DNA of 64,000 bases from Acidobacteriota bacterium. GTDB taxonomy: Bacteria > Acidobacteriota > Blastocatellia > Chloracidobacteriales > Chloracidobacteriaceae. Within the stretch, counting starts at the first letter, position 1; each line of letters opens with the position of its first letter. The notes below the pieces were generated by a model. The model did no database searches and was not told the DNA's origin. It saw nothing but the letters and a program-made list of their open reading frames with translations. The translations under genes and the position numbers were made by a program. The DNA lies in contig JACQXX010000010.1 in NCBI GenBank assembly GCA_016208495.1, positions 1-64,000 of the forward strand. The letters are read 5' to 3'. Of this stretch, positions 10,193 through 62,857 are shown one piece after another.

Positions 10193-10347
10193 ATGAAGGA
10201 TGAAGCAGAATGAAGAATGAAGAGTGAGGTCACATGAAGAATGAAGAATGAGGAATGAAGAAAATAAGCTGGTAGGCTTAAATTCTCATTACTCATTCTC
10301 CGCTCTTCATTCTCCGCTCTTCATTCTCAATTCTTCATTCTCCATTC
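10190..10347. repeat. Paired heptamer arrays between rpoB and rpoC
   Basis: The left arm (10190-10262) consists of AATGAAG-type units beginning on the rpoB stop TGA. The right arm (10282-10347) is the reverse complement type (CTTCATTCTC and variants). The two arms can form a long hairpin in the rpoB-rpoC mRNA. The right arm ends directly before the rpoC ribosome binding site. Confidence 0.85.
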
Positions 10348-10365
10348 GATGGGGAGGGTATAAAC

Positions 10366-13300: not shown

Positions 13301-14556
13301 GGTCAATTATTGTGATTGATGAAAAACGCAACAATCGCGAAATTGCCCGCTATCAGATTGTGTATGGCGCCAAATTGCTCGTCAATGATGGTGATATGGT
13401 TGAGGAAGGTCAACCACTGGCCCAGTGGGATCCATACACGTTCTCAATTCTCACCGAAGTTGAAGGAACCATTCACTTTAAAGACCTGCTTGACGGTATC
13501 ACGATCCATGAGGAAGTTGATGAACACACCGGCAACCGCAGTATGATCGTGATGGAATCAACCGATGAAAAACGGCAGCCACGGATTGAAATTCTGGCAC
13601 CAGATAGCCGGAAAGTACTGAAGAGCTATCAAATGCCAATCCGGGCCAACTTGACGGTTCGGGACGGCGACAAGATTGCTCCGGGCGATATCATTGCCAA
13701 GATTCCGCGCGAATCAACTCGTGCCAAGGACATCACCGGCGGTTTGCCGCGGGTGGTCGAACTCTTTGAAGCCCGCCGACCACGGGAAACCGCGGTGATG
13801 GCTGAAATCAATGGCCGGGTTGAATTTGGGAATGTGACCAAGGGGCAACGCAAGATCCGGGTCGTTGGGGACGACGGTGAAGTTCGCGAGTATTCAATCC
13901 CACGCGGCGTGCACCTCAATGTGCAGGAAAGTGACCGCGTGCGGGCTGGCGAACCTTTGATGGATGGACCGCTCAACCCACATGACATTCTGGCGGTGCA
14001 GGGAATGGACGCATTGCAGAAATACCTCGTGAATGAAATTCAGGAAGTCTATCGTCTGCAGGGCGTCAACATTAACGACAAGCATATCGAAGTCATTGTT
14101 CGCCAGATGCTGCGGTGGGTGAAAGTCAAAGAAGTTGGCGATACGGAATTCCTGCTCGAAGAACAGGTTGACCGGTTCCGCTTTGAAGACGAAAACAAAC
14201 GGGTTCTGGAACAGGATAGCCAGCCGGCGATTGCCGAGCCGCTGTTGCTTGGAATCACCAAAGCCTCGCTTTCAACCGAAAGTTTCATTTCGGCTGCCAG
14301 CTTCCAGGAAACCACCCGGGTGCTCACCGAAGCCTCAATCTCAGGTCGCACTGATTACCTGCGCGGCTTGAAGGAAAACGTGATTATGGGCCGGTTGATT
14401 CCGGCTGGAACCGGAATGGAATTTTATCGTCGGTTCCGCCTGATGAACGAATCTCACATTGAGGATAACCATATGACCATGCGTGAAACTGAGGAAGTCC
14501 TTGACACAATGGTCAGCCACGAAATCAGTGCTCGTCAGGCAGCAAAAGAAAAATAA
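10366..14556 (+). CDS. rpoC: RNA polymerase beta' subunit
   Basis: The beta' subunit is the catalytic large subunit of RNA polymerase. The protein is 1396 residues. It has the N-terminal zinc site ([20 protein letters not shown]), the catalytic NADFDGDQM at about residues 455-463, the second cysteine cluster ([11 protein letters not shown]), and the trigger-loop [13 protein letters not shown]. The length fits a lineage with a large insertion after the trigger loop. The start is GTG at 10366: GGGGAGGG lies 7 bp upstream, while the ATG at 10375 would be too far from it. A rho-independent terminator follows. Confidence 0.98.
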
Positions 14557-16978: not shown

Positions 16979-17482
16979 ATGAAGTTGAATATTGTAAAAT
17001 TTGGAGATCCAATCCTGCAGCAGAAAGCTGAGCCAGTCACTGAGTTCAATGCAGAATTGAAAGAACTGGTCGCCAATATGTTTGAGACAATGTATGAAGC
17101 GCCTGGAGTTGGACTGGCCGCTCCACAGGTCGGCGTTTCGAAGCGGTTGTTTGTGATGGATTGTTCGAAAGACCGTAGCCGGCAGTTTGTGTTTATCAAT
17201 CCAGAGATTCTTTCAAACGAAGGGAAACAAAAAGGCGATGAAGGCTGCTTGAGTTTTCCTGGAATCTATTTTGCAGTGGAACGCCCGGTGCGAGTGGTGG
17301 TTTCAGCCCAGGATGTTGACGGAAAGAAATTTACCGTTGACTTGATGGAGCTTGAAGCCCGCTGTGCAGTGCACGAAACCGATCACCTTGACGGAGAACT
17401 CTTTATCAATCGAGTCGGCCCGCTCAAACGCGACATTATCAAGGGTCGCATTAAGAAGATGATGAAAGCCGGGAAATGGTAA
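16979..17482 (+). CDS. def: Peptide deformylase
   Basis: Removes the formyl group from the initiator methionine of nascent proteins. From ATG 16979 the protein has 167 residues; GAGGAAG sits directly upstream. An in-frame ATG at 16943 would overlap the aroC stop and add 12 residues, and is less likely. All three catalytic motifs are present: GVGLAAPQ (43-50), EGCLS (88-92) and HETDH (132-136), giving metal ligands C90, H132 and H136. The last base pairs run into an octamer repeat array. Confidence 0.94.
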   Translation: MKLNIVKFGDPILQQKAEPVTEFNAELKELVANMFETMYEAPGVGLAAPQVGVSKRLFVMDCSKDRSRQFVFINPEILSNEGKQKGDEGCLSFPGIYFAVERPVRVVVSAQDVDGKKFTVDLMELEARCAVHETDHLDGELFINRVGPLKRDIIKGRIKKMMKAGKW

Positions 17483-17567
17483 GGATGACAAGGTGACAAG
17501 ATGACAAGGTGACTGAAAACTCAGGACTATCACGCTGTCATCTGGTCACCTTGTCATCTTGTCATTT
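17480..17567. repeat. Paired octamer arrays after def
   Basis: Four 8-bp units (GGATGACA, AGGTGACA, AGATGACA, AGGTGACT) start directly after the def TAA at 17483-17514. The reverse-complement array (TGTCATCT, GGTCACCT, TGTCATCT, TGTCATTT) runs at 17536-17567. The arms can pair, and the structure lies between the convergent def and CBS genes, so it may act as a bidirectional 3' end. Confidence 0.85.
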
Positions 17568-18266: not shown

Positions 18267-18333
18267 TTAGAAAACAGTCAAGCTATTTGATCAAATGGAG
18301 TTAGCGAACTACTGACTACTGACTACTGACTAC
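18267..18333. repeat. Dispersed 70-bp element, copy 1, with CTACTGA array
   Basis: It contains GAAAACAGTCAAG and TTAGCGAACTACTGACTACT, and ends in about 3.5 exact heptamers CTACTGA (18309-18333). The array ends 9 bp from the arginase stop codon. Related copies are at 21746-21814 and 53597-53655. Confidence 0.8.
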
Positions 18334-21745: not shown

Positions 21746-21814
21746 CTGGAAAACAGTCAAGTGATTCAACCAAATAAATTTAGCGAACTACTGACTACTG
21801 ACTACTGACTGATA
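21746..21814. repeat. Dispersed 70-bp element, copy 2, overlapping the rluB stop
   Basis: It shares GGAAAACAGTCAAGTGATT and TTTAGCGAACTACTGACTAC with the copies at 18267 and 53597. The CTACTGA heptamers run 21788-21811 in exact register. The rluB stop codon (TAG, minus strand, 21802-21804) is the start of the third unit, so the repeat supplies the end of the gene. Confidence 0.82.
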
Positions 21815-23380: not shown

Positions 23381-23408
23381 AGTAGTCAGTAGTCAGTAGT
23401 CAGTAGTG
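23381..23408. repeat. AGTAGTC heptamer array abutting the scpB start
   Basis: Four units of 7 bp in exact register, the last with one change, begin 3 bp from the scpB start codon. On the scpB sense strand they read CTACTGA and occupy the whole ribosome-binding region. Confidence 0.9.
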
Positions 23409-23778: not shown

Positions 23779-23809
23779 CTACTGACTACTGACTAAATTC
23801 TACTGACTA
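23779..23809. repeat. CTACTGA array at the scpA stop
   Basis: Heptamers at 23779-23792 and 23800-23809, interrupted by 4 bp. The scpA stop codon (TAG on the minus strand, 23807-23809) is the first three bases of a unit. With the array at 23381 it forms inverted boundaries of the scpA-scpB gap. Confidence 0.85.
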
Positions 23810-24592
23810 TCTGTTCGATTGTCGTTTGACAAGGATGTCGCCAAAGGTTTTTTCCTGCACGATCAACAATGAGTACTCTTTGACTAACTCCAGCAGGGCC
23901 AGCAGGATACAAATCATTTCACGTTTTGAGCGTGAAGCTTCAAACAGGGAGCGAACATTGATGGCTTTCTGTTTGGAAAGCAGGGAACGCAATTCAATCA
24001 GTTTTTGGGCCTGAGTGACTTCATCCCGGGCAATTTCAATTTCGACTTTTTCGCGGCGGCGTTCCACGACGCGGCGAAACGTTTCCAATAAATCGAAGAC
24101 GGTGGCGACCACTTCGCTGTCGAGTTCGTCTTCCGGAATGGGTCGAGTAAATACTGCCTGTTCGACTTCGGCCCGTGACCAGAGCATATGGGCAGCCGTT
24201 TTGTATTTTTGGTGTTCAAGCAACCGGCGAACCAGTTCTGAGCGGGGGTCTTCGGTTTCGTCACCGGCTTCAATGCTTGAAGCCGGTGCTTTGGGTAAGA
24301 GCATTTGCGATTTGATTTGAATCAAGGTCGCGGCCATCACTACAAACTCGCCAGCCAGATCAATATCAAGTTCTTGCAATTCTTGAATATAAATCAGGTA
24401 TTCTTTCGCGATGCGAGCTATCGGGATGTCATAAATATCAATTTCATCCCGTTTAATCAGGTAGAGCAACAAATCAAGCGGACCCTCAAACGTGGCCAGT
24501 TTGATTTTGTAATCGTATTCCGAATTCTCCTTGATAAAAGCAGCTTCCAGATCAATTGGTCGTTTGGATTCAACAGGTTTTGGTGTTTCCAT
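23807..24592 (-). CDS. scpA: Segregation and condensation protein A
   Basis: ScpA is the kleisin subunit that bridges SMC heads for chromosome segregation. From ATG 24592 the protein has 261 residues. The family signature TFEGPLDLLLYLIKRDEIDI is near the N-terminus, followed by IAKEYLIYIQELQELDIDLAGEFVVMAA. The C-terminal winged helix contains MICILLALLELVKEYSLLIVQ. The frame is open further upstream into the M50 protease gene; ATG 24592 leaves a 17-bp gap and starts close to the usual position. Confidence 0.93.
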   Translation of the reverse strand: METPKPVESKRPIDLEAAFIKENSEYDYKIKLATFEGPLDLLLYLIKRDEIDIYDIPIARIAKEYLIYIQELQELDIDLAGEFVVMAATLIQIKSQMLLPKAPASSIEAGDETEDPRSELVRRLLEHQKYKTAAHMLWSRAEVEQAVFTRPIPEDELDSEVVATVFDLLETFRRVVERRREKVEIEIARDEVTQAQKLIELRSLLSKQKAINVRSLFEASRSKREMICILLALLELVKEYSLLIVQEKTFGDILVKRQSNR

Positions 24593-25336: not shown

Positions 25337-25434
25337 GTTCCGGGTTCCGGGTTCTAGGTTCTGGGTTCTGGGTTCTGGGTTCCGGGTTCCGGGTTCCGGG
25401 TTCCGGGTTCCGGGTTCCGGGTTCCGGGTTCCGG
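25337..25434. repeat. GTTCCGG heptamer array, 14 units
   Basis: Fourteen consecutive 7-bp units in exact register. Ten are GTTCCGG, three GTTCTGG and one GTTCTAG. The array sits upstream of the M50 gene start and downstream of the NHL gene end. Confidence 0.95.
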
Positions 25435-25460
25435 GTTTTTCGAAAATATGAGGAATTCTG

Positions 25461-25536
25461 TCACCTTGTCACTTTGTCACCCTGTCATCTTGTCACCTTG
25501 TCACCTGGTCATTCTGTCACCTTGTCATTGAGTCAC
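25461..25536. repeat. TCACCTTG octamer array overlapping the NHL gene end
   Basis: Nine and a half units in exact 8-bp register. The last 20 bp (25517-25536) are coding on the minus strand and give the end of the propeller protein, Asp-Ser-Met-Thr-Arg-stop. The TGA stop is the first three bases of a unit. Confidence 0.93.
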
Positions 25537-29680: not shown

Positions 29681-29815
29681 GACCAAATGACAAATGACAA
29701 GAGGACAGGGGAACAGGAGGACAAGCGGACAAGGGGACAGAGTGACAGGGTGACAAGGTGACAGGGTGACAGGGTGACAAGGTGATAGAGTGACAAGGTG
29801 ACAGAGTGAGGGACT
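29681..29815. repeat. GACAAGGT-type octamer array after the VWA lipoprotein gene
   Basis: About 16 degenerate 8-bp units (GGTGACAG, GGTGACAA, GCGGACAA and variants). An inverted counterpart (TTGTCCCTCTGTCCCTCTG and neighbours) lies at 29985-30028, so the two can pair around a 170-bp A/T-rich loop. Confidence 0.85.
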
Positions 29816-29984
29816 GTCCAAATTTTTCTGTAACCAGTCAATTTAACCTGGAAAAACCAGGTGATCGGCTCTTTCTTTAGCCATTAAGTATTGAATATAA
29901 ACAGTTTATCTAAGCTTAAAAAACGAGCTAAAAATCCAGTTTAGCCATTTACACAAAAAACTGAAAAGTCTCTACTTTGATAGT

Positions 29985-30028
29985 CACCTTGCCCTTGTCC
30001 CTCTGTCCCTCTGTCCTCTTGTCATTGA
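29985..30028. repeat. Inverted octamer counterpart
   Basis: Units CACCTTGC, CCTTGTCC, CTCTGTCC, CTCTGTCC, TCTTGTCA, complementary in type to the array at 29681-29815. Confidence 0.75.
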
Positions 30029-33523: not shown

Positions 33524-33811
33524 ATGGCCTTTCGAAAGCAAGATTGGATATTTGTCGGAATTGTGGTGGCAGTGGTTTTCATCCTGGCCGCACTTTCGTA
33601 TTTTGGACCTCATCCACCGGCGGTTCCGCCAATTCCGGCGCACCAAAGCCTGACATCGCAAACCACGCGTGTGGAATGTCTTGTCTGCCACGACCCTGAA
33701 AAAGGGCAGCCGCCTTCTGCTCGTCTAACCATCCGCCATCCCCAAAAATGGCGTGACGAAAAATTTTCCTGTTTAGGTTGTCATAAAATTCAGCGAGCCA
33801 CTGCAAAATAG
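33524..33811 (+). CDS. Small membrane-anchored di-heme c-type cytochrome
   Basis: 95 residues from ATG 33524. One N-terminal transmembrane helix (about residues 8-26) acts as signal anchor. A Pro-rich linker precedes two CxxCH haem-attachment motifs: CLVCH (52-56) and CLGCH (83-87). The sequence ends eight residues after the second. It is probably periplasmic and electron-carrying, but no oxidoreductase partner lies next to it. The frame continues upstream to 33413 with no relevant similarity. The final G of the stop codon is the first base of a GGGCTGA repeat. Confidence 0.82.
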   Translation: MAFRKQDWIFVGIVVAVVFILAALSYFGPHPPAVPPIPAHQSLTSQTTRVECLVCHDPEKGQPPSARLTIRHPQKWRDEKFSCLGCHKIQRATAK

Positions 33812-33907
33812 GGCTGAAGACTCGCCAGCTCGGGGCTGAAGAAGACGGTCTGAAGAAGGCGGGCTGAAGACTCGCCAGCTTGGGGCTGAAGAAGACGGGC
33901 TGAAGTT
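33811..33907. repeat. GGGCTGAAG repeat cluster
   Basis: Repeats of GGGCTGAAGACTCGCCAGCT and GGGCTGAAGAAGACG. The module GACTCGCCAGCTCGGGGC recurs with small changes here and at 62706-62723, and in reverse orientation at 35960-35985 and 47240-47263. Confidence 0.8.
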
Positions 33908-35633: not shown

Positions 35634-35639
35634 AACCCA

Positions 35640-36010
35640 GGGCTGAGGGCTGAGGGCTGAGGGCCATAAGCGGCAGGATAAGGGAACAGAGCCCAATCTG
35701 GACAGGGGACAAGGGGACAAGGGGGACAAGGAGAAAAAATATTCTCCCGCTCCCAACGTCGGTCGGAGGATCTCCTTGTCTCTTTGTCTCTCCTAGCTCC
35801 TTGTCTCAAACAGGCCCACATTTCCTTATCCTGGCGCTTATGGGGCTGAAACCTTCGGGTGGAAGACAACGGGCTGAAGAAAGTGGGCTGAAGAAAGTGG
35901 GATGAAGAACTGGTTTTATTTCATCCCTCATCCCTCATCCCTCATCCTTCATCCCTTCGATTGCTCCGAGCTTGCGAGTCTTTCTGCCCCAAGCCCCAAG
36001 CCCTGGTTCT
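35640..36010. repeat. Composite repeat region between aldehyde dehydrogenase and M61 peptidase
   Basis: Four kinds of array lie in order: GGGCTGA (35640-35663), GACAAGGG-type (35700-35732) with its inverse CTCCTTGTCTCTTTGTCTC (35769-35810), GGGCTGAAGAAAGT (35870-35905), and TCATCCC (35930-35959). A dispersed segment CATCCTTCATCCCTTCGATT follows (from 35943) and is repeated at 47221. No gene is seen in this 520-bp gap. Confidence 0.85.
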
Positions 36011-36155: not shown

Positions 36156-37967
36156 TTGAAACCGGTAGTCCATGCCTTTGTTTTCTCGATTTTGACTCTG
36201 GTGATGGCGATGACGATTGAAGCTGGCCAGAATGGCCGAACCATTGAATATGCACTCACCCCAGGCGTGCCAAATTCGCATTTGATCGAAGTTCAAATCA
36301 CTTATACCCCACCGACAGCCGTGGCTTCGGTTGATTTTGCGATTCCCGCCTGGCGGCCTGGACGATATAAAATTCAAAACTATGCGCGCAATGTGCGGGA
36401 GTTTGCCGCCGTCAACGAACGCAACCAGCGGCTCAAAACTGAGAAAATCGACAAAAACACCTGGCGGGTGAATGGTCAAACATTCAAGCAAATCACGGTT
36501 CGCTATAAAGTCTATGCCAATGTGTTTGATGCCGGTTCAACGCTTCTCAACGAAGACGAGTTGTACTGGAATGGGACCAACCTGTTGATGTATGTGGTTG
36601 GGCACAAGGATCAACCGACCCGGTTGCAAGTCAATGTTCCTCCTTCCTGGCGGATTGCGACTGGTTTGCAGAAGACTCGTGAACCCAATGTGTTTCTGGC
36701 GGCCAACTATCACGTGCTGGCCGATGCGCCTGGAATTGCCAGCCCAACCCTGGAGGTTGTGTCATTTGACCATGACGGTGCCCGATATTTCCTGGCTTTT
36801 CAGGGAGAGGTGGAATATGACAGGCGGGAGCTGGCAGATAATCTGAGGCGAACCGTGGTGGAAGCCCTCAAAATCTTTGGAAAAGCGCCATTTAGTGAAT
36901 ACTGGTTTCTGTTTCATGTTTTGCCGGATGCCCGCTATCACGGTGTTGAGCATCTGAATTCAACTTCGATTACCGTGCCGTCGGCGACCTTTACCACCGG
37001 GTGGGGACTCAATCGGTTTTATTCAATCAGCACCCACGAATTCTTCCACGTCTGGAATGTTAAACGCCTTTATCCGCAAGTCCTTGCCTCGATTGACTAT
37101 TCACAGGAGATTTACACGCGCAATCTGTGGTTTGCCGAAGGCATCACGACCTATTATGACGACTTGCTCTGCAAGCGGGCCGGATTGGTCACTGTCGCCG
37201 GGTATCTGGATGGGCTGGCCGGCAATATTACGACCCAGCAGAATTCGGTCGGACGCAAACTTACTTCGGCGGCTCAAGCCAGTTTTGACGAATGGCTGAC
37301 CCCGGATGATGCCGCCAATGTCGAGACTGACATTTACACGAAGGGGGCGCTTCTGGGGCTATTGCTCGATATGGCGGTGCGGCATCGAACGGATAATCAA
37401 AAAACGCTCGATGATGTGATGCGCTACCTGTATGCCACCTACGCCCAGAAGGGAATTGGATTCCCGGAAGACGGAATCCAGAAAGCCTGCGAAGCCGTGA
37501 CCGGCAGTAGCTTCGCTGAGTTTTTTGAAGCCTATGTGGCTGGTGTCAAGGAATTACCCTACAGAGAATCACTCGACATTGCCGGGGTTGATGTTGTTGA
37601 AGGTCGAACCATAGACACGGCTGAGAGCGTGTTTGGCGTAACTTTCGGAGGGGATGAAAAACAGGTCACACTGGCCCAGGTTCGACCAGATGAAGCCGGA
37701 TTTCGGGCTGGATTGGATAAAGGGGACATCCTGGCTGCGATTGAGTTTGAACAAGTTACAGCCGCATCACTCCCAGTGCTCTGCCGCAAGCATAAGCCGG
37801 GTGAGCAAGTCAAAGTTCATGTCTTTCGTCGTGGGCGCTTACGCGAACTCAGCGTTACCTTGCAGGAAAGCACCAGTCTGCGGTATGAAGTTCGGGTGCG
37901 ACAAAATCTGACCACCCGACAACAAAAGGTTTTCAATTCGTGGCTCAATGAGCCGTCAAACAAATGA
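36156..37967 (+). CDS. M61 glycyl-aminopeptidase-family protein with PDZ domain
   Basis: 603 residues. The start is TTG at 36156 with GAGG 7 bp upstream; it preserves a signal peptide (MKPVVHAFVFSILTLVMAMTIEAG), so the protein is probably periplasmic. The N-terminal beta domain is followed by the gluzincin motif H294-E-F-F-H298 and the downstream glutamate in WFAEGITTYY. A PDZ domain occupies roughly residues 490-580 (VRPDEAGFRAGLDKGDILAA). Family members are zinc metallopeptidases. The stop codon lies inside an AATGAAG heptamer array. Confidence 0.9.
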   Translation: MKPVVHAFVFSILTLVMAMTIEAGQNGRTIEYALTPGVPNSHLIEVQITYTPPTAVASVDFAIPAWRPGRYKIQNYARNVREFAAVNERNQRLKTEKIDKNTWRVNGQTFKQITVRYKVYANVFDAGSTLLNEDELYWNGTNLLMYVVGHKDQPTRLQVNVPPSWRIATGLQKTREPNVFLAANYHVLADAPGIASPTLEVVSFDHDGARYFLAFQGEVEYDRRELADNLRRTVVEALKIFGKAPFSEYWFLFHVLPDARYHGVEHLNSTSITVPSATFTTGWGLNRFYSISTHEFFHVWNVKRLYPQVLASIDYSQEIYTRNLWFAEGITTYYDDLLCKRAGLVTVAGYLDGLAGNITTQQNSVGRKLTSAAQASFDEWLTPDDAANVETDIYTKGALLGLLLDMAVRHRTDNQKTLDDVMRYLYATYAQKGIGFPEDGIQKACEAVTGSSFAEFFEAYVAGVKELPYRESLDIAGVDVVEGRTIDTAESVFGVTFGGDEKQVTLAQVRPDEAGFRAGLDKGDILAAIEFEQVTAASLPVLCRKHKPGEQVKVHVFRRGRLRELSVTLQESTSLRYEVRVRQNLTTRQQKVFNSWLNEPSNK

Positions 37968-38004
37968 AGAATGAAGAAAGTGGTTAGTGGTTAGTGGTTA
38001 GTAA
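37963..38004. repeat. Heptamer array with changing unit, overlapping the M61 stop
   Basis: Six units in one unbroken 7-bp register: AATGAAG, AATGAAG, AAAGTGG, TTAGTGG, TTAGTGG, TTAGTAA. The unit sequence changes but the spacing does not. The TGA stop of the peptidase is inside the first unit. Confidence 0.92.
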
Positions 38005-38088: not shown

Positions 38089-38270
38089 GTTCGGATAGCC
38101 GGTGGTTGCTCGGCTACAAGGAGCTACCACCGGGAACAGGTTCGTTCTCTCCAGTGCTCCCCCGCTTCGCCCGCGCCCCTGCGGGGCGCGGGCGAAGCGG
38201 GGGAGCAACAAGGGGTGGCCTTTGGATCCGGTGGTAGGCCCAAAGCGGCCAACCGACCGGCTATCCGAAC
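38089..38270. repeat. Long inverted-repeat element next to the AtuA-like fragment
   Basis: Outer arms GTTCGGATAGCCGGT (38089-38103) / ACCGGCTATCCGAAC (38256-38270) are perfect. Inner arms CTACCACCGG (38124-38133) / CCGGTGGTAG (38228-38237) match. The core is a perfect 25-bp GC-rich stem (38155-38179 / 38183-38207) with loop TGC. A further small hairpin ACCGCTTCGCGGT follows at 38274-38286. No coding capacity. The architecture is like that of the element at 23413-23657. Confidence 0.88.
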
Positions 38271-38291
38271 GGCACCGCTTCGCGGTGTGCG

Positions 38292-40594: not shown

Positions 40595-40599
40595 AAAGA

Positions 40600-40627
40600 G
40601 CGAGTAGCGAGTAGCGAGTAGCGAGTA
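40600..40627. repeat. GCGAGTA heptamer array, left member of an inverted pair
   Basis: Four exact units start 6 bp after the stop codon at 40592-40594. The inverted counterpart (TACTCGC, TACTCAC, TACTCGC) is at 40875-40895. Confidence 0.93.
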
Positions 40628-40649
40628 GTCAATCCTTTATTTCTCAGTG

Positions 40650-40752
40650 CCTTGTCATAAGCTTTTCAGAGATAGTGGACCTGGTAAGTGTTTGATTTTT
40701 CTGCATTTCTCTTCGTGGTTAAAATGTCTGGAATTTTTCGATAAGATACTTA
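40650..40752. repeat. Dispersed 110-bp element, copy 1
   Basis: It shares CTTGTCATAAG, GTAAGTGTTTGATT, CTTCGTGGTT, AAAATGTCT and GGAATTTT in the same order with the reverse complement of 55573-55685. No coding capacity. Confidence 0.75.
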
Positions 40753-40874
40753 GAAATTATCTCAAAACACCAATTTAGCCAGGCTAAGTGTTGAGAACAG
40801 ATTTTATTTTAGCGATTTGAGATAGTCTCTTAGGGGTATGCATGTTCTACGCTCCTCTATAAAATCTACCTGAC

Positions 40875-40912
40875 TACTCGCTACTCACTACTCGCTTTCA
40901 GTTCGCTATTTC
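40875..40912. repeat. TACTCGC heptamer array, right member of an inverted pair
   Basis: Three exact units plus two degenerate ones (TTTCAGT, TCGCTAT) end 28 bp before the next start codon. Complementary to the array at 40600. Confidence 0.88.
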
Positions 40913-42922: not shown

Positions 42923-43212
42923 AGAATGTAGTTAGTGGTTAGGGACCCAGAAGAAAATAAAATCCCACTGAAATCGGGTTCAGGGTTCAGGGTTCAGGGT
43001 TTGGGTGATGAATTGACTGATCCCACTCAAGATAAGTGCTGAGAAACCAGCAGGTACCATTCAAGTTGGATGATCCTGCCCTGAACCCTGAACCCTGGCG
43101 GTATGATATTTCCATCCGACTCCCTTAGTGGTTAGTGGCCAGTTTTTGGCTCTTGGTTCTTCTTCGAAAGTATTGGTTTCTAACCACTAACTACATTCTC
43201 AATTCTTCATTC
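42917..43212. repeat. Nested inverted heptamer arrays between two small genes
   Basis: Outer arms AATGTAGTTAGTGGTTAG (42925-42942) / CTAACCACTAACTACATT (43180-43197) are perfectly complementary. Inner arms GGGTTCA x3 (42976-42999) and CCCTGAA-type units (43079-43098) are complementary. A further TTAGTGG pair lies at 43125-43138. The whole 300-bp gap is thus a two-level hairpin, starting at one gene's stop and ending 14 bp before the next gene. Confidence 0.9.
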
Positions 43213-47144: not shown

Positions 47145-47148
47145 AACC

Positions 47149-47315
47149 GGGCTGAAAACAACGGGCTGAAGACATTGGGCCAGGGGCTGAGGGCTGAAGA
47201 AGTGGTTTGATTTCATCCCTCATCCTTCATCCCTTCGATTGCCCCGAGCTTGCGAGTCTTCAGCTTGGTGTCTTCAGCCCCAAGCTCCAAACCCCAGGCC
47301 CTGGTTTTCTCAGCC
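47149..47315. repeat. Composite GGGCTGA / TCATCCC repeat region
   Basis: GGGCTGAAG units (47149-47205) are followed by TCATCCC units, the shared segment CATCCTTCATCCCTTCGATT (from 47221, also at 35943), and inverted CAGCCCCAAGC units (47275-47290). The left and right parts can pair. It starts 5 bp after the VWA gene stop. Confidence 0.85.
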
Positions 47316-52500: not shown

Positions 52501-52652
52501 GTCTGGGCTGTGTGTTTGACAGGTCCAGATAGTGATAGCAATGTGGGCTGATACCCTCAGCCCAAATTGCTATAGTTTTTCAGATAAATATTGCCCTGGT
52601 GTTTTTGGTGATCATCGTTCAGAAACCATTGAAAAATTTGGCTTTCTTTTTC

Positions 52653-52680
52653 GTGTAGTTCGTGTGTTTCGTGGTTTCTT
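52653..52680. repeat. TTCGTG-type short repeat
   Basis: TTTTCGTGTAGTTCGTGTG and neighbouring TTTCGTGGTT form a degenerate 9-bp periodic run. The reverse-complement type (AACCACGAAACACACGAAAT) is at 55608-55637. Confidence 0.65.
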
Positions 52681-53467: not shown

Positions 53468-53474
53468 ATCTTTA

Positions 53475-53506
53475 GGGCTTGGGGCTAAGGGCTAAGGGCT
53501 GAGGGA
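53475..53506. repeat. GGGCTAA/GGGCTTG heptamer array
   Basis: GGGCTTG, GGGCTAA, GGGCTAA, GGGCTGA in 7-bp register, starting 8 bp from the start codon of the minus-strand hydratase gene. Confidence 0.85.
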
Positions 53507-53596
53507 AATACAGACCTTTCAACCCTTTCGCCGGTTAAGAACACAAGGTGGGATTTCAAAGTGAAAGAAGGTTGTTTGGAAGTGAACCTTTTGTGA

Positions 53597-53655
53597 TGAA
53601 AAATAGTCAAGTGATTCTATAAATTGAATTTAACGGGCTACTGACTACTGACTAC
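53597..53655. repeat. Dispersed 70-bp element, copy 3
   Basis: It contains AGTCAAGTGATTCTATAAAT and GGCTACTGACTACTGACTAC. It ends 9 bp from the stop codon of the phosphatase gene, the same position relative to the gene as copies 1 and 2. Confidence 0.8.
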
Positions 53656-55572: not shown

Positions 55573-55685
55573 GGTAAGTACCTTACCGAAAATTCCAAGA
55601 CATTTTGAACCACGAAACACACGAAATACACGAAAAGAATCAAACACTTACTCAATCCAATATCTCAGGAAACTTATGACAAAGT
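55573..55685. repeat. Dispersed 110-bp element, copy 2 (reverse orientation)
   Basis: Reverse-complement relative of 40650-40752: AAAATTCC, AGACATTTT, AACCACGAA, AATCAAACACTTAC and CTTATGACAAAG occur in matching order. It carries an additional CACGAAA run. Confidence 0.75.
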
Positions 55686-55695
55686 ACTTACCTGG

Positions 55696-55815
55696 TTTCG
55701 AAAACCCGGAATCCGGAACCCAGAACCCAGACAAGATGACAGGGTGACAAGGTGATTTTTTTCATCCCTCATCTTTCATCCCTCATCCCTTAAAGAACCC
55801 GGAACCCGGACTTAC
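55696..55815. repeat. Composite short repeats upstream of the Fic-like gene
   Basis: GAACCCA/GGAACCC heptamers (55700-55730 and 55795-55811) flank GACAGGGTGACAAGG and TCATCCC-type units (55763-55790). The 453-bp divergent gap 55435-55887 holds no other visible feature. Confidence 0.75.
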
Positions 55816-55887: not shown

Positions 55888-56682
55888 ATGCTTCCGATTT
55901 TGCCAAGTTACAGTAATTCCTATCATCCTTCTTCTGATTGGGCGAACCAGTTGGCTGCCAAACAAAGGCTCTGGCAAACCCAGGTGGAGGCAAAGGGTAC
56001 GGTGATTGAACACGTGACAGCCTGGACTTTGAACGAGTGGGTTTTGACTGAACTCCAGTTTGACTATCCGGATCTGGACCGTGATCAGGCAACAGCCTGG
56101 CAGACAGAAGCTGATCAATCACAACCCACCGATCCGATTCAGCGTGAACTCGTGAGTTTCTCCCAGGCGGCGAACGCTGTTTTCCAGCGGGCCAACACGC
56201 TACCAACCACTGAGCGTGATGCCCTTGGCAAGGAAGACCTGATCCATAGTTACCGCCTGGTGACTGGCAATCCAGTATCTGGCTGGAACGAACTATTTCG
56301 TCGGGCCGAAGCCGCTCCCCAGGTTCCAACTCATCAACCAGCCGCGCCTCAGGCATTACCGGTTCTGGTTGAAATGGCGCTTGACTGGTTTACAACTGAC
56401 TCGTTTGCCGAAATGCACCCGGTTGAAAAGGCCAGCCTCTTCCATTTGCGGATGCTGGATTTACAGCCATTTGCCAGCCACACCAATCGGCTGGTGCGTC
56501 TTCTGGCCAGTTACTATTTGCTTCGTGACGGGTTGCCGCCCTTGATGATTTCCGCTGAAAATCGGCCAGCCTATTTTGACACCCTTGGGTTTTCATTTCA
56601 GATGATCACTCAACCCGGCGTGGAACTCTTTGCCCGACTCCTGGAGCAAACTCTGGACCAGTGGCTGGAGATGACCAAATGA
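55888..56682 (+). CDS. Fic-domain protein with degenerate active site
   Basis: 264 residues. The C-terminal third follows the Fic fold closely: HPVEKASLFHLRMLDLQPFA, then SHTNRLVRLLASYYLLRDGLPP, then RPAYFDTL. In active Fic proteins the motif is HPFxxGNGRxxR. Here the catalytic His is Gln (Q193, codon CAG at 56464-56466) and GNGR is replaced by H198-T-N-R201. P194, F195, R201 and R204 are kept. AMP transfer is therefore unlikely; a binding role or another chemistry is possible. The last four codons and stop lie inside an octamer array. Confidence 0.75.
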   Translation: MLPILPSYSNSYHPSSDWANQLAAKQRLWQTQVEAKGTVIEHVTAWTLNEWVLTELQFDYPDLDRDQATAWQTEADQSQPTDPIQRELVSFSQAANAVFQRANTLPTTERDALGKEDLIHSYRLVTGNPVSGWNELFRRAEAAPQVPTHQPAAPQALPVLVEMALDWFTTDSFAEMHPVEKASLFHLRMLDLQPFASHTNRLVRLLASYYLLRDGLPPLMISAENRPAYFDTLGFSFQMITQPGVELFARLLEQTLDQWLEMTK

Positions 56683-56865
56683 TAAGATGACAAGGTGACA
56701 AGGTGACAAGGTGACAGGGTGACAAGGTGACAAGGTGACAAGGTGACAGGGTGACAGGGTGACAAGGTGACAGGGTGACAGGGTGACAATAGATCATTCT
56801 GTCACTGTGTCAGATGTCACTGTGTCATTTGGTCAGATGTCACCCGGTCACCCTGTCATCTGGTC
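56670..56865. repeat. GGTGACAA octamer array overlapping the Fic-like stop
   Basis: Fifteen units in perfect 8-bp register (56670-56789). The first two encode the last residues of the Fic-like protein and its TGA stop. An inverted set (GTCACTGTGTCAGATGTCAC, CACCCTGTCATCTGGTCAG) follows at 56798-56865 and can pair with it. Confidence 0.95.
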
Positions 56866-57091
56866 AGCTTTGCATTTTGCCTCAAGTCCTCTAATATTAA
56901 CCTTTCCAAAAAACCTTCTCTCACTCTCGCCATCGAAAATTGCAGATGTAAACCAATTCCAGGTGTCCGGCATGCATTTTTGAGGCAGGATTTTGCCCTG
57001 TGCTGGATGTGGCTTTGGAACAGAGTGCGAAGAATGAACTCGAAGTTAATTTCCCAGGGAACTTCTAAGTTTGAAGATGAGGAGTCTTACT

Positions 57092-62660: not shown

Positions 62661-62857
62661 TGGGGCTGAAAAATCCTCGGGCTTAGGGCTCAGGGCTTGG
62701 GGCTGAAGACTCGCAAGCTCGGGGCTGAAGAAATCGGGTTGAAGACTTTGGGATTTTGTCTTGAACTCGATGTTCCTCAACCCCAAGCCCGTTTTCTTCA
62801 GCCCCAAGCCCTGGTATTTTCAGCCCCAAGCCCTGAGCCCTGGTATTTTCAGCCCGA
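62661..62857. repeat. Inverted GGGCTGAAG / CTTCAGCCC repeat after gyrB
   Basis: The left part (62661-62752) has GGGGCTGAA, GGGCTTA, GGGCTCA, GGGCTTG and GACTCGCAAGCTCGGGGC units. The right part (62780-62857) has CCCCAAGCCC, TTTTCTTCAGCCCC and TTTTCAGCCCG units in reverse orientation. The arms can pair over more than 60 bp, starting 5 bp after the gyrB stop and ending just before the next start. Confidence 0.9.

Follow-up and report, generated by a model that had tools for sequence, protein, structure and literature searches.

The 64-kb window belongs to an acidobacterial genome (G000) of 8.38 Mb in 177 contigs, whose RpoB shares 70% identity with the nearest named records. It carries rpoB and rpoC, and Pfam confirms def, an RluB-like pseudouridine synthase, ScpA, NHL, M61, and Fic among its genes. 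A heptamer array of two units lies at the end of the M61 peptidase gene.

37963 to 37978, + strand: (AATGAAG)2.3, outer part of the left arm of element E1; the M61 peptidase gene ends (TGA, 37965 to 37967) within the first unit.
37979 to 38002, + strand: (AGTGGTT)3.4, inner part of the E1 left arm, directly after (AATGAAG)2.3.

The signature of this AATGAAG-AGTGGTT composite, GAAGAAAGTGGTTAGTGG, occurs in 57 exact copies across G000. An outer flank, GAATGAAGAA, lies beside 36 of the 56 AGTGGTT arrays of this genome, and an inner core, AAATCAATACTTTCGAAGAA, is found in a share of them. Judged by these matches, the array at 37963 to 38002 is the left arm of a dispersed element, E1. We found no right arm complementary to 37979 to 38002 in the same gap, and the predicted RNA fold of the array shows no excess over shuffled sequences (z = −0.37). 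The original prediction had seen in this array a change of unit with the 7-bp register kept. This does not hold as a rule, since the junction is one copied composite and neighboring arrays of different units are in phase in 13 of 52 cases, with 7.4 expected.

A second element, E2, is ∼110 bp long, has terminal inverted repeats (TTATACCA...TGGTATAA), and houses part of the AGTCAGT arrays of G000, where its core motif is present in ∼156 copies (control, 3). It is the sole family that combines terminal inverted repeats with many copies, as MITEs do. The ends of E2 show TTA/TAA, which may belong to the repeat rather than to a target-site duplication, and no transposase matching the MITE-like elements was identified. 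Two of its copies contribute arrays to the window.

18308 to 18333, − strand: AGTCAGT array of an E2 copy, beside the stop of an arginase-family gene.
21787 to 21810, − strand: AGTCAGT array of an E2 copy; it runs over the end of the RluB-like gene, whose TAG stop it provides.

Right behind the 37963 to 38002 array, GATAGCCGGTGGT and a long palindrome, CCCCGCTTCGCCCGCGCC, mark another repeat-like stretch at 38090 to 38290. Other gaps of G000 (C28 and C17, for example) have similar sequences of the ACCACCGG/GATAGCCGG kind, which suggests a REP-like family.

Exact arrays of 7 to 9 bp number 33 in the window and are spread over 15 of its 41 gaps. TRF with indels allowed adds further ones, including those behind rpoB and def, and Rfam at gathering threshold returned only two tRNAs in the window and no match to the arrays. 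The other loci are as follows.

10193 to 10365, + strand: rpoB-rpoC intercistronic inverted repeat (fold, −70.9 kcal/mol; z = −7.2), with an AGAATGA-type left arm (∼10199 to 10262) and a TCATTCT-type right arm (∼10282 to 10347).
17481 to 17565, + strand: inverted repeat of the octamer TGACAAGG immediately after def (left arm, 17481 to 17513; right arm, 17536 to 17565; fold, −47.4 kcal/mol; z = −7.3).
23381 to 23407, + strand: AGTAGTC array on the left side of a gap; its partner array, CTACTGA, is at 23779 to 23795.
23779 to 23795, + strand: CTACTGA array near the scpA stop, with its C-rich strand on +.
25337 to 25437, + strand: GGGTTCC array of 14.4 copies.
25459 to 25536, + strand: TGTCACCT array with its G-rich strand on −, overlapping the stop of the NHL-repeat gene.
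29684 to 30023, + strand: GACAAGGG/TGACAGGG octamer left arm (29684 to 29809) and CCCTTGTC right arm (29987 to 30023).
35639 to 36003, + strand: composite of AGGGCTG (35639 to 35664), GGGGACAAG (35700 to 35731) with CTCCTTGTC (35771 to 35807), and GGGCTGAAGAAAAC (35862 to 35909) with TCATCCC (35921 to 35956) and GCCCCAA (35986 to 36003).
40599 to 40896, + strand: AGCGAGT left arm (40599 to 40628) and ACTCGCT right arm (40874 to 40896).
42976 to 43097, + strand: GGGTTCA and TGAACCC as left and right arms, enclosed by AGAATGAAGAATGTAGTTAGTGG / CCACTAACTACATTC...CATTC.
53474 to 53655, + strand: AGGGCTA array (53474 to 53505) and CTACTGA array (53638 to 53655) beside a gene stop.
55703 to 55810, + strand: short mixed arrays (AACCCAG, GACAAGGT, TCATCCC, and GAACCCG) in a divergent gap.
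56680 to 56866, + strand: TGACAAGG array of 13.8 copies over the stop of the Fic-like gene, with a TGTCAC right arm.

A further dispersed family, GGGCTGAAGA(A/C)... with GACTCGCAAGCTCGGGGC, is present at 33811 to 33905, 35862 to 36003, 47148 to 47278, and 62680 to 62855 and dominates BLAST matches between different gaps of G000. Arrays of 9 bp of the TTCGTGTAG / CACGAAACA type, recurrent in G000, are found at 52650 to 52673 and 55611 to 55635.

We extended the analysis to ∼1.60 Mb of G000, including a first set of 863 kb and a held-out set of 400 kb, and to 0.92 Mb of a genome from a related genus (G051). Genes were called with a home-made Markov caller rather than a published tool, array numbers were compared with Markov simulations, and stop proximity was compared with random placement of each array inside its own gap. 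In 148 kb of intergenic DNA from G000 there are 291 exact arrays of period 7, 81 of period 8, and 37 of period 9, against 1.0, 0.3, and 1.0 in the simulations, so the 7- and 8-bp arrays predicted throughout the window prove to be a feature of the sampled genome. Other periods are close to background except for the unit multiples 14, 16, and 24. Arrays are depleted from coding DNA and rarer in divergent gaps, and their units form a limited set of families, numbering dozens, in which 7-, 8-, and 9-bp periods coexist.

The association with stop codons is real but moderate. In the window, eight gene 3′ ends have an array starting no more than 10 bp from the stop. Arrays within this distance number 76 in the first G000 set (43.4 ± 5.7 by random placement), 28 in the held-out set (17.6 ± 3.7), and 56 in G051 (27.8 ± 4.5), an excess of ∼1.6- to 2-fold over random placement within the same gaps. 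Positions are therefore not random with respect to stops in any of the three samples, as the original prediction implied. Counted per gene end, an array within 10 bp is seen at 17% (3′) and 5% (5′) in G000 and at 24% and 9%, respectively, in G051; only about one array in five is as near as 10 bp to a stop. Start codons show no excess at the same distance (25 versus 32 in the first set, 6 versus 10 in the held-out set, and 23 versus 23 in G051). At 88 start codons of G051 an array ends 0 to 29 bp upstream, and Shine-Dalgarno-like motifs were seen at 16 of these 88 array-bearing starts; they are likewise rare at the array-bearing starts of G000 (11 of 92).

The prediction also held that most units carry a stop codon and that, with periods that are not multiples of 3, consecutive units close all frames, which would make the arrays cassettes ensuring termination in every frame. 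In G000, the G-rich strand of 18 of 32 families has a stop in its unit against 12.3 expected (p = 0.005); in G051, only 2 of 6 families have one and there is no enrichment. Stop-bearing units of G000 are also commoner at 3′ ends (177:72 over stop-free ones) than at 5′ ends (81:71; p = 0.0004), as frame closing would have it. However, the arrays nearest to stops hold fewer stop codons, with a stop-bearing to stop-free ratio of 60:41 there versus 117:31 at 11 to 60 bp. The common families GGGTTCA, GGGTTCC, and GGGTTCG, which have no stop codon on the G-rich strand, follow the same rule, and the same arrays occur upstream of starts and in divergent gaps. A stop-codon role is thus very improbable.

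What the arrays have in common is their layout. Gap sequences typically have an array with its G-rich strand on the left and the complement of that array on the right, so that the two form the arms of an inverted repeat. Same-family inverted pairs have the G-rich arm first in 63 of 64 cases in the first G000 set, in 18 of 18 in the held-out set, and in 33 of 33 in G051. In enlarged samples the counts are 109:1 for G000 and 88:0 for G051, i.e., 197 of 198, and all four gap types agree. The order persists (12:0 in G000) where each of the two arms is over 60 bp away from genes. The two arms across one gap share their unit family in 40 of 87 and 52 of 77 cases (46 to 68%), with 0.07 and 0.17 expected by chance. 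A gene-cassette layout, with arrays flanking genes, was rejected, since families match across gaps and, across a gene, in 3 of 29 and 4 of 36 cases. Many arrays, including that at 37963 to 38002, have no detectable partner. The RNA folds of the window inverted repeats between rpoB and rpoC and behind def lie far below those of shuffled sequences.

The same polarity is seen from the side of the genes. Within 60 bp of 3′ ends the G-rich strand is sense in 156:17 arrays of the first set, 64:10 of the held-out set, and 74:7 of G051, and within 60 bp of starts it is antisense in 91:10, 27:2, and 42:14, respectively. Unpaired arrays obey the polarity up to 40 bp from a 3′ end (124:10) and not beyond (29:30 and 12:27). 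Whereas array inverted repeats are G-first by 189:6 and 131:5, intergenic inverted repeats from 75 loci of other bacteria are balanced (74:76). Because the polarity is found in divergent gaps too, the direction of transcription alone does not explain it. Generic strand skew was discarded as its source, being of the same sign and, at 0.07 to 0.14, too small for ratios of 20:1. This mild G-over-C skew was measured in array-masked gap flanks of both genomes, reading away from genes at 3′ and 5′ ends; it perhaps reflects decayed repeats.

Polarity and position are the same as those of the Xanthomonas GGGAATC repeats, for which G-quadruplex formation has been proposed (PMC4692102), and the GGGTTCN and GGGGCTT families do contain G runs. 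Since families without GGG behave alike, with the G-rich strand sense near 3′ ends in 112:9, 46:6, and 54:5 arrays, quadruplexes are not a general explanation, and we regard them as the basis of the rule with great skepticism.

We propose, with a probability of roughly 55%, that most of the arrays are arms of inverted repeats between genes and that these, as mRNA hairpins, act or are tolerated much as REP/BIME elements are, rather than as frame closers or obligate terminators. A left arm sits just behind one gene boundary, its complement, the right arm, shortly ahead of the next, and a loop separates the two. On both sides the strand richer in G than in C reads away from the gene, so either RNA strand would meet the G-rich arm first. 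The arms may lengthen and shorten by slippage; no positive correlation was seen between the lengths of the two arms in one gap. Once transcribed, pairs would be expected to form long hairpins immediately after a stop or between two cistrons, where they could serve, or simply be tolerated, as 3′-end or intercistronic structures of the mRNA. That the arrays are transcribed, fold in vivo, and influence mRNA is presumed in this proposal.

Hairpins at gene ends could also stand in for intrinsic terminators. Such terminators are fewer at array-bearing 3′ ends in the first G000 set (12/165 versus 42/236; p = 0.003), in the combined G000 sets (p = 0.007), and in G051 (p = 0.047), and the rarity of arrays in divergent gaps fits as well. 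The deficit is absent from the held-out set, however (odds ratio, 0.89; p = 1). Moreover, rpoB and rpoC normally form one operon, and the strong inverted repeat between them speaks against an obligate terminator. By eye, the right arms at the window loci have no clear T tract, and of the 236 array-bearing ends in the two G000 sets together, a T-tract terminator scan marked only 18. The polarity is also the same in divergent gaps. We therefore consider a terminator role unlikely.

A stronger competitor, possible although we lean against it, is that the arrays are neutral or selfish repeats without function, which spread and slip, acquire paired arms by inverted copying, and are positioned by tolerance to insertion. 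Lineage-specific units, the MITE-like terminal inverted repeats of E2, and the depletion from coding DNA all agree with this, as does the lack of arrays in the 80 kb sampled from a compact genome of the same family that, by its size and layout, is probably Chloracidobacterium-like (G086; 3.7 Mb, with chromosomes of 2.66 and 1.00 Mb). So do the arm lengths of G051 pairs, which are uncorrelated or negatively correlated (−0.09, −0.14, and −0.45); a matched hairpin is therefore not tightly maintained. Against neutrality, a stop-side excess is also seen in the convergent gaps of G000, which have no promoter zone to displace arrays toward one side: 65 arrays are no more than 20 bp from a stop, versus 38.8 ± 4.7 expected; the 23 arrays in convergent gaps of G051 show no clear stop-side excess. 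Neutral spread also leaves the near-absolute polarity without explanation, and the rpoB-rpoC gap repeatedly holds inverted repeats made of different units.

Comparison with relatives bears on both the hairpin reading and the neutral one. Units are lineage specific: three copies of TTAGTGG in tandem occur 340 times in G000 and otherwise give 1 to 4 matches each in a handful of the 297 genomes of the phylum that were searched, and three copies of TGACAAGG occur 166 times in G000 and 14 times in G051. G051 uses mostly different units, the abundant ones being GGACTGA, GAGAATT, and GGGAGTCTT, with GGGTTCA common to both genomes, and obeys the same layout and polarity rule. Between rpoB and rpoC the arms are built of AATGAAG in G000, of GAGAAGT/GAGAATT in G051, and of GATTTTG in Acidobacteria bacterium 28-1; other genomes have plain hairpins there or none. 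The gap between the aldehyde dehydrogenase and M61 genes, site of the 35639 to 36003 composite, has AGGGCTG and other units in G000, AGGACTG in G051, and GACGCAAG in a third genome (G297). We compared 19 syntenic gaps: both genomes have arrays in 6, neither has any in 8, and only one does in 5 (p = 0.07). In no doubly occupied gap do the two genomes use the same unit. Conservation of array presence at these gaps is only suggestive, because the p value moved from 0.015 at 17 gaps to 0.07 at 19 after sequence was added. In 24 kb of Acidobacteria bacterium 28-1 we noted three heptamer/octamer inverted repeats, all with the G-rich arm first (14398 to 14478, 24048 to 24122, and from 3711 onward in L051); that between rpoB and rpoC has a mirrored variant unit.

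We raise tentatively, and with considerable doubt, the idea that a hairpin-forming layout, built of repeats, G-rich arm first, and anchored at gene boundaries, is kept at places including rpoB-rpoC in several acidobacterial lineages while the unit is replaced wholesale between genera, so that selection would act on period and polarity and leave the sequence almost free. The predicted maintenance of spacing rather than sequence survives to the extent that spacing and layout persist across genera with different units; the in-register junction on which it was built, a copied composite, does not support it.

No shared loop or core was found in the arrays of G051. There, 44 of 51 GGACTGA arrays start in one register without shared flanks, as might result if a telomerase-like reverse transcriptase added templated repeats at both 3′ ends of a break, giving G-first pairs and fixed registers. 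With ∼2 reverse transcriptase genes in G000 for dozens of unit families, ordinary dispersed arrays near some of these genes, and unique loops between arms, this origin is barely credible.

For decades heptamer repeats have been recorded in bacteria, and no cause or role has gained acceptance. The two related genomes, with different units and one rule, indicate that period, polarity, and position matter and that unit sequence and G runs do not, which argues against quadruplexes and stop codons as general explanations. The system is directly testable, and repeat elements would account for part of the intergenic DNA in large acidobacterial genomes. In the literature searched, which leaves most subscription journals outside, we found no description of such arrays in Acidobacteriota.

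Several known systems resemble these arrays. Eukaryotic foldback elements have repeat-built arms around variable loops, and MITEs resemble E2 in their terminal inverted repeats, whereas most families here have no shared core or loop. The STRRs of Calothrix and other cyanobacteria comprise several heptamer families dispersed in intergenic DNA. The comparison with STRRs made in the original prediction is borne out as a similarity; they belong to another phylum, and the paired-arm layout and polarity are not described for them in the literature examined, where they are mentioned as heptamer repeats (PMC4692102). REP/BIME elements are palindromes in many intergenic copies with proposed roles in termination and mRNA stabilization (PMC3733652). 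REP units are single palindromes of 20 to 40 bp, whereas the units here are nonpalindromic, of 7 to 9 bp, and the arms are tandem arrays. Array pairs flank none of the best 7 of the 9 PF01797 (Y1, RAYT transposase) matches in G000, each inspected in a locus of 2 to 3 kb; at the far end of one of these loci there is a GGGTTCA array.

In Beggiatoaceae, TAACTGA direct repeats are intergenic, their forward units close all three frames, and some overlap upstream stops (MacGregor 2015, PMC4679880). Our arrays share the intergenic location and the overlap with some stops. The TAACTGA repeats, however, have a single unit, lie mostly just upstream of start codons, and form one indirect versus 169 direct sets (PMC4679880), whereas here there are dozens of unit families and pairing is inverted. 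A close parallel is the GGGAATC heptamer of Xanthomonas (Rehm et al. 2015, PMC4692102), which is intergenic, with its G-rich strand sense at up to 50 bp from stops or overlapping them, on the noncoding strand upstream of starts, and rarer between divergent genes; two genomes have 70 and 75 convergent (inverted) pairs (PMC4692102). The GGGGA(T/C)T heptamers of Nostoc PCC 7120 follow the same position rule with few inverted pairs (PMC4692102). Heptamer over-representation, stop/start polarity, and convergent pairs are all found here as in Xanthomonas. The stop-linked arrangement, thought unfamiliar in the original prediction, is therefore real but already published (PMC4692102 and PMC4679880): the position and polarity rule and the convergent pairs are known from Xanthomonas, and the position rule is known from Nostoc. 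In those organisms one quadruplex-forming family was studied in each, whereas here there are dozens of families, pairing is the rule, and most families have no GGG and, judged from their sequences, cannot form G-quadruplexes. What is new is this multifamily variant in Acidobacteriota.
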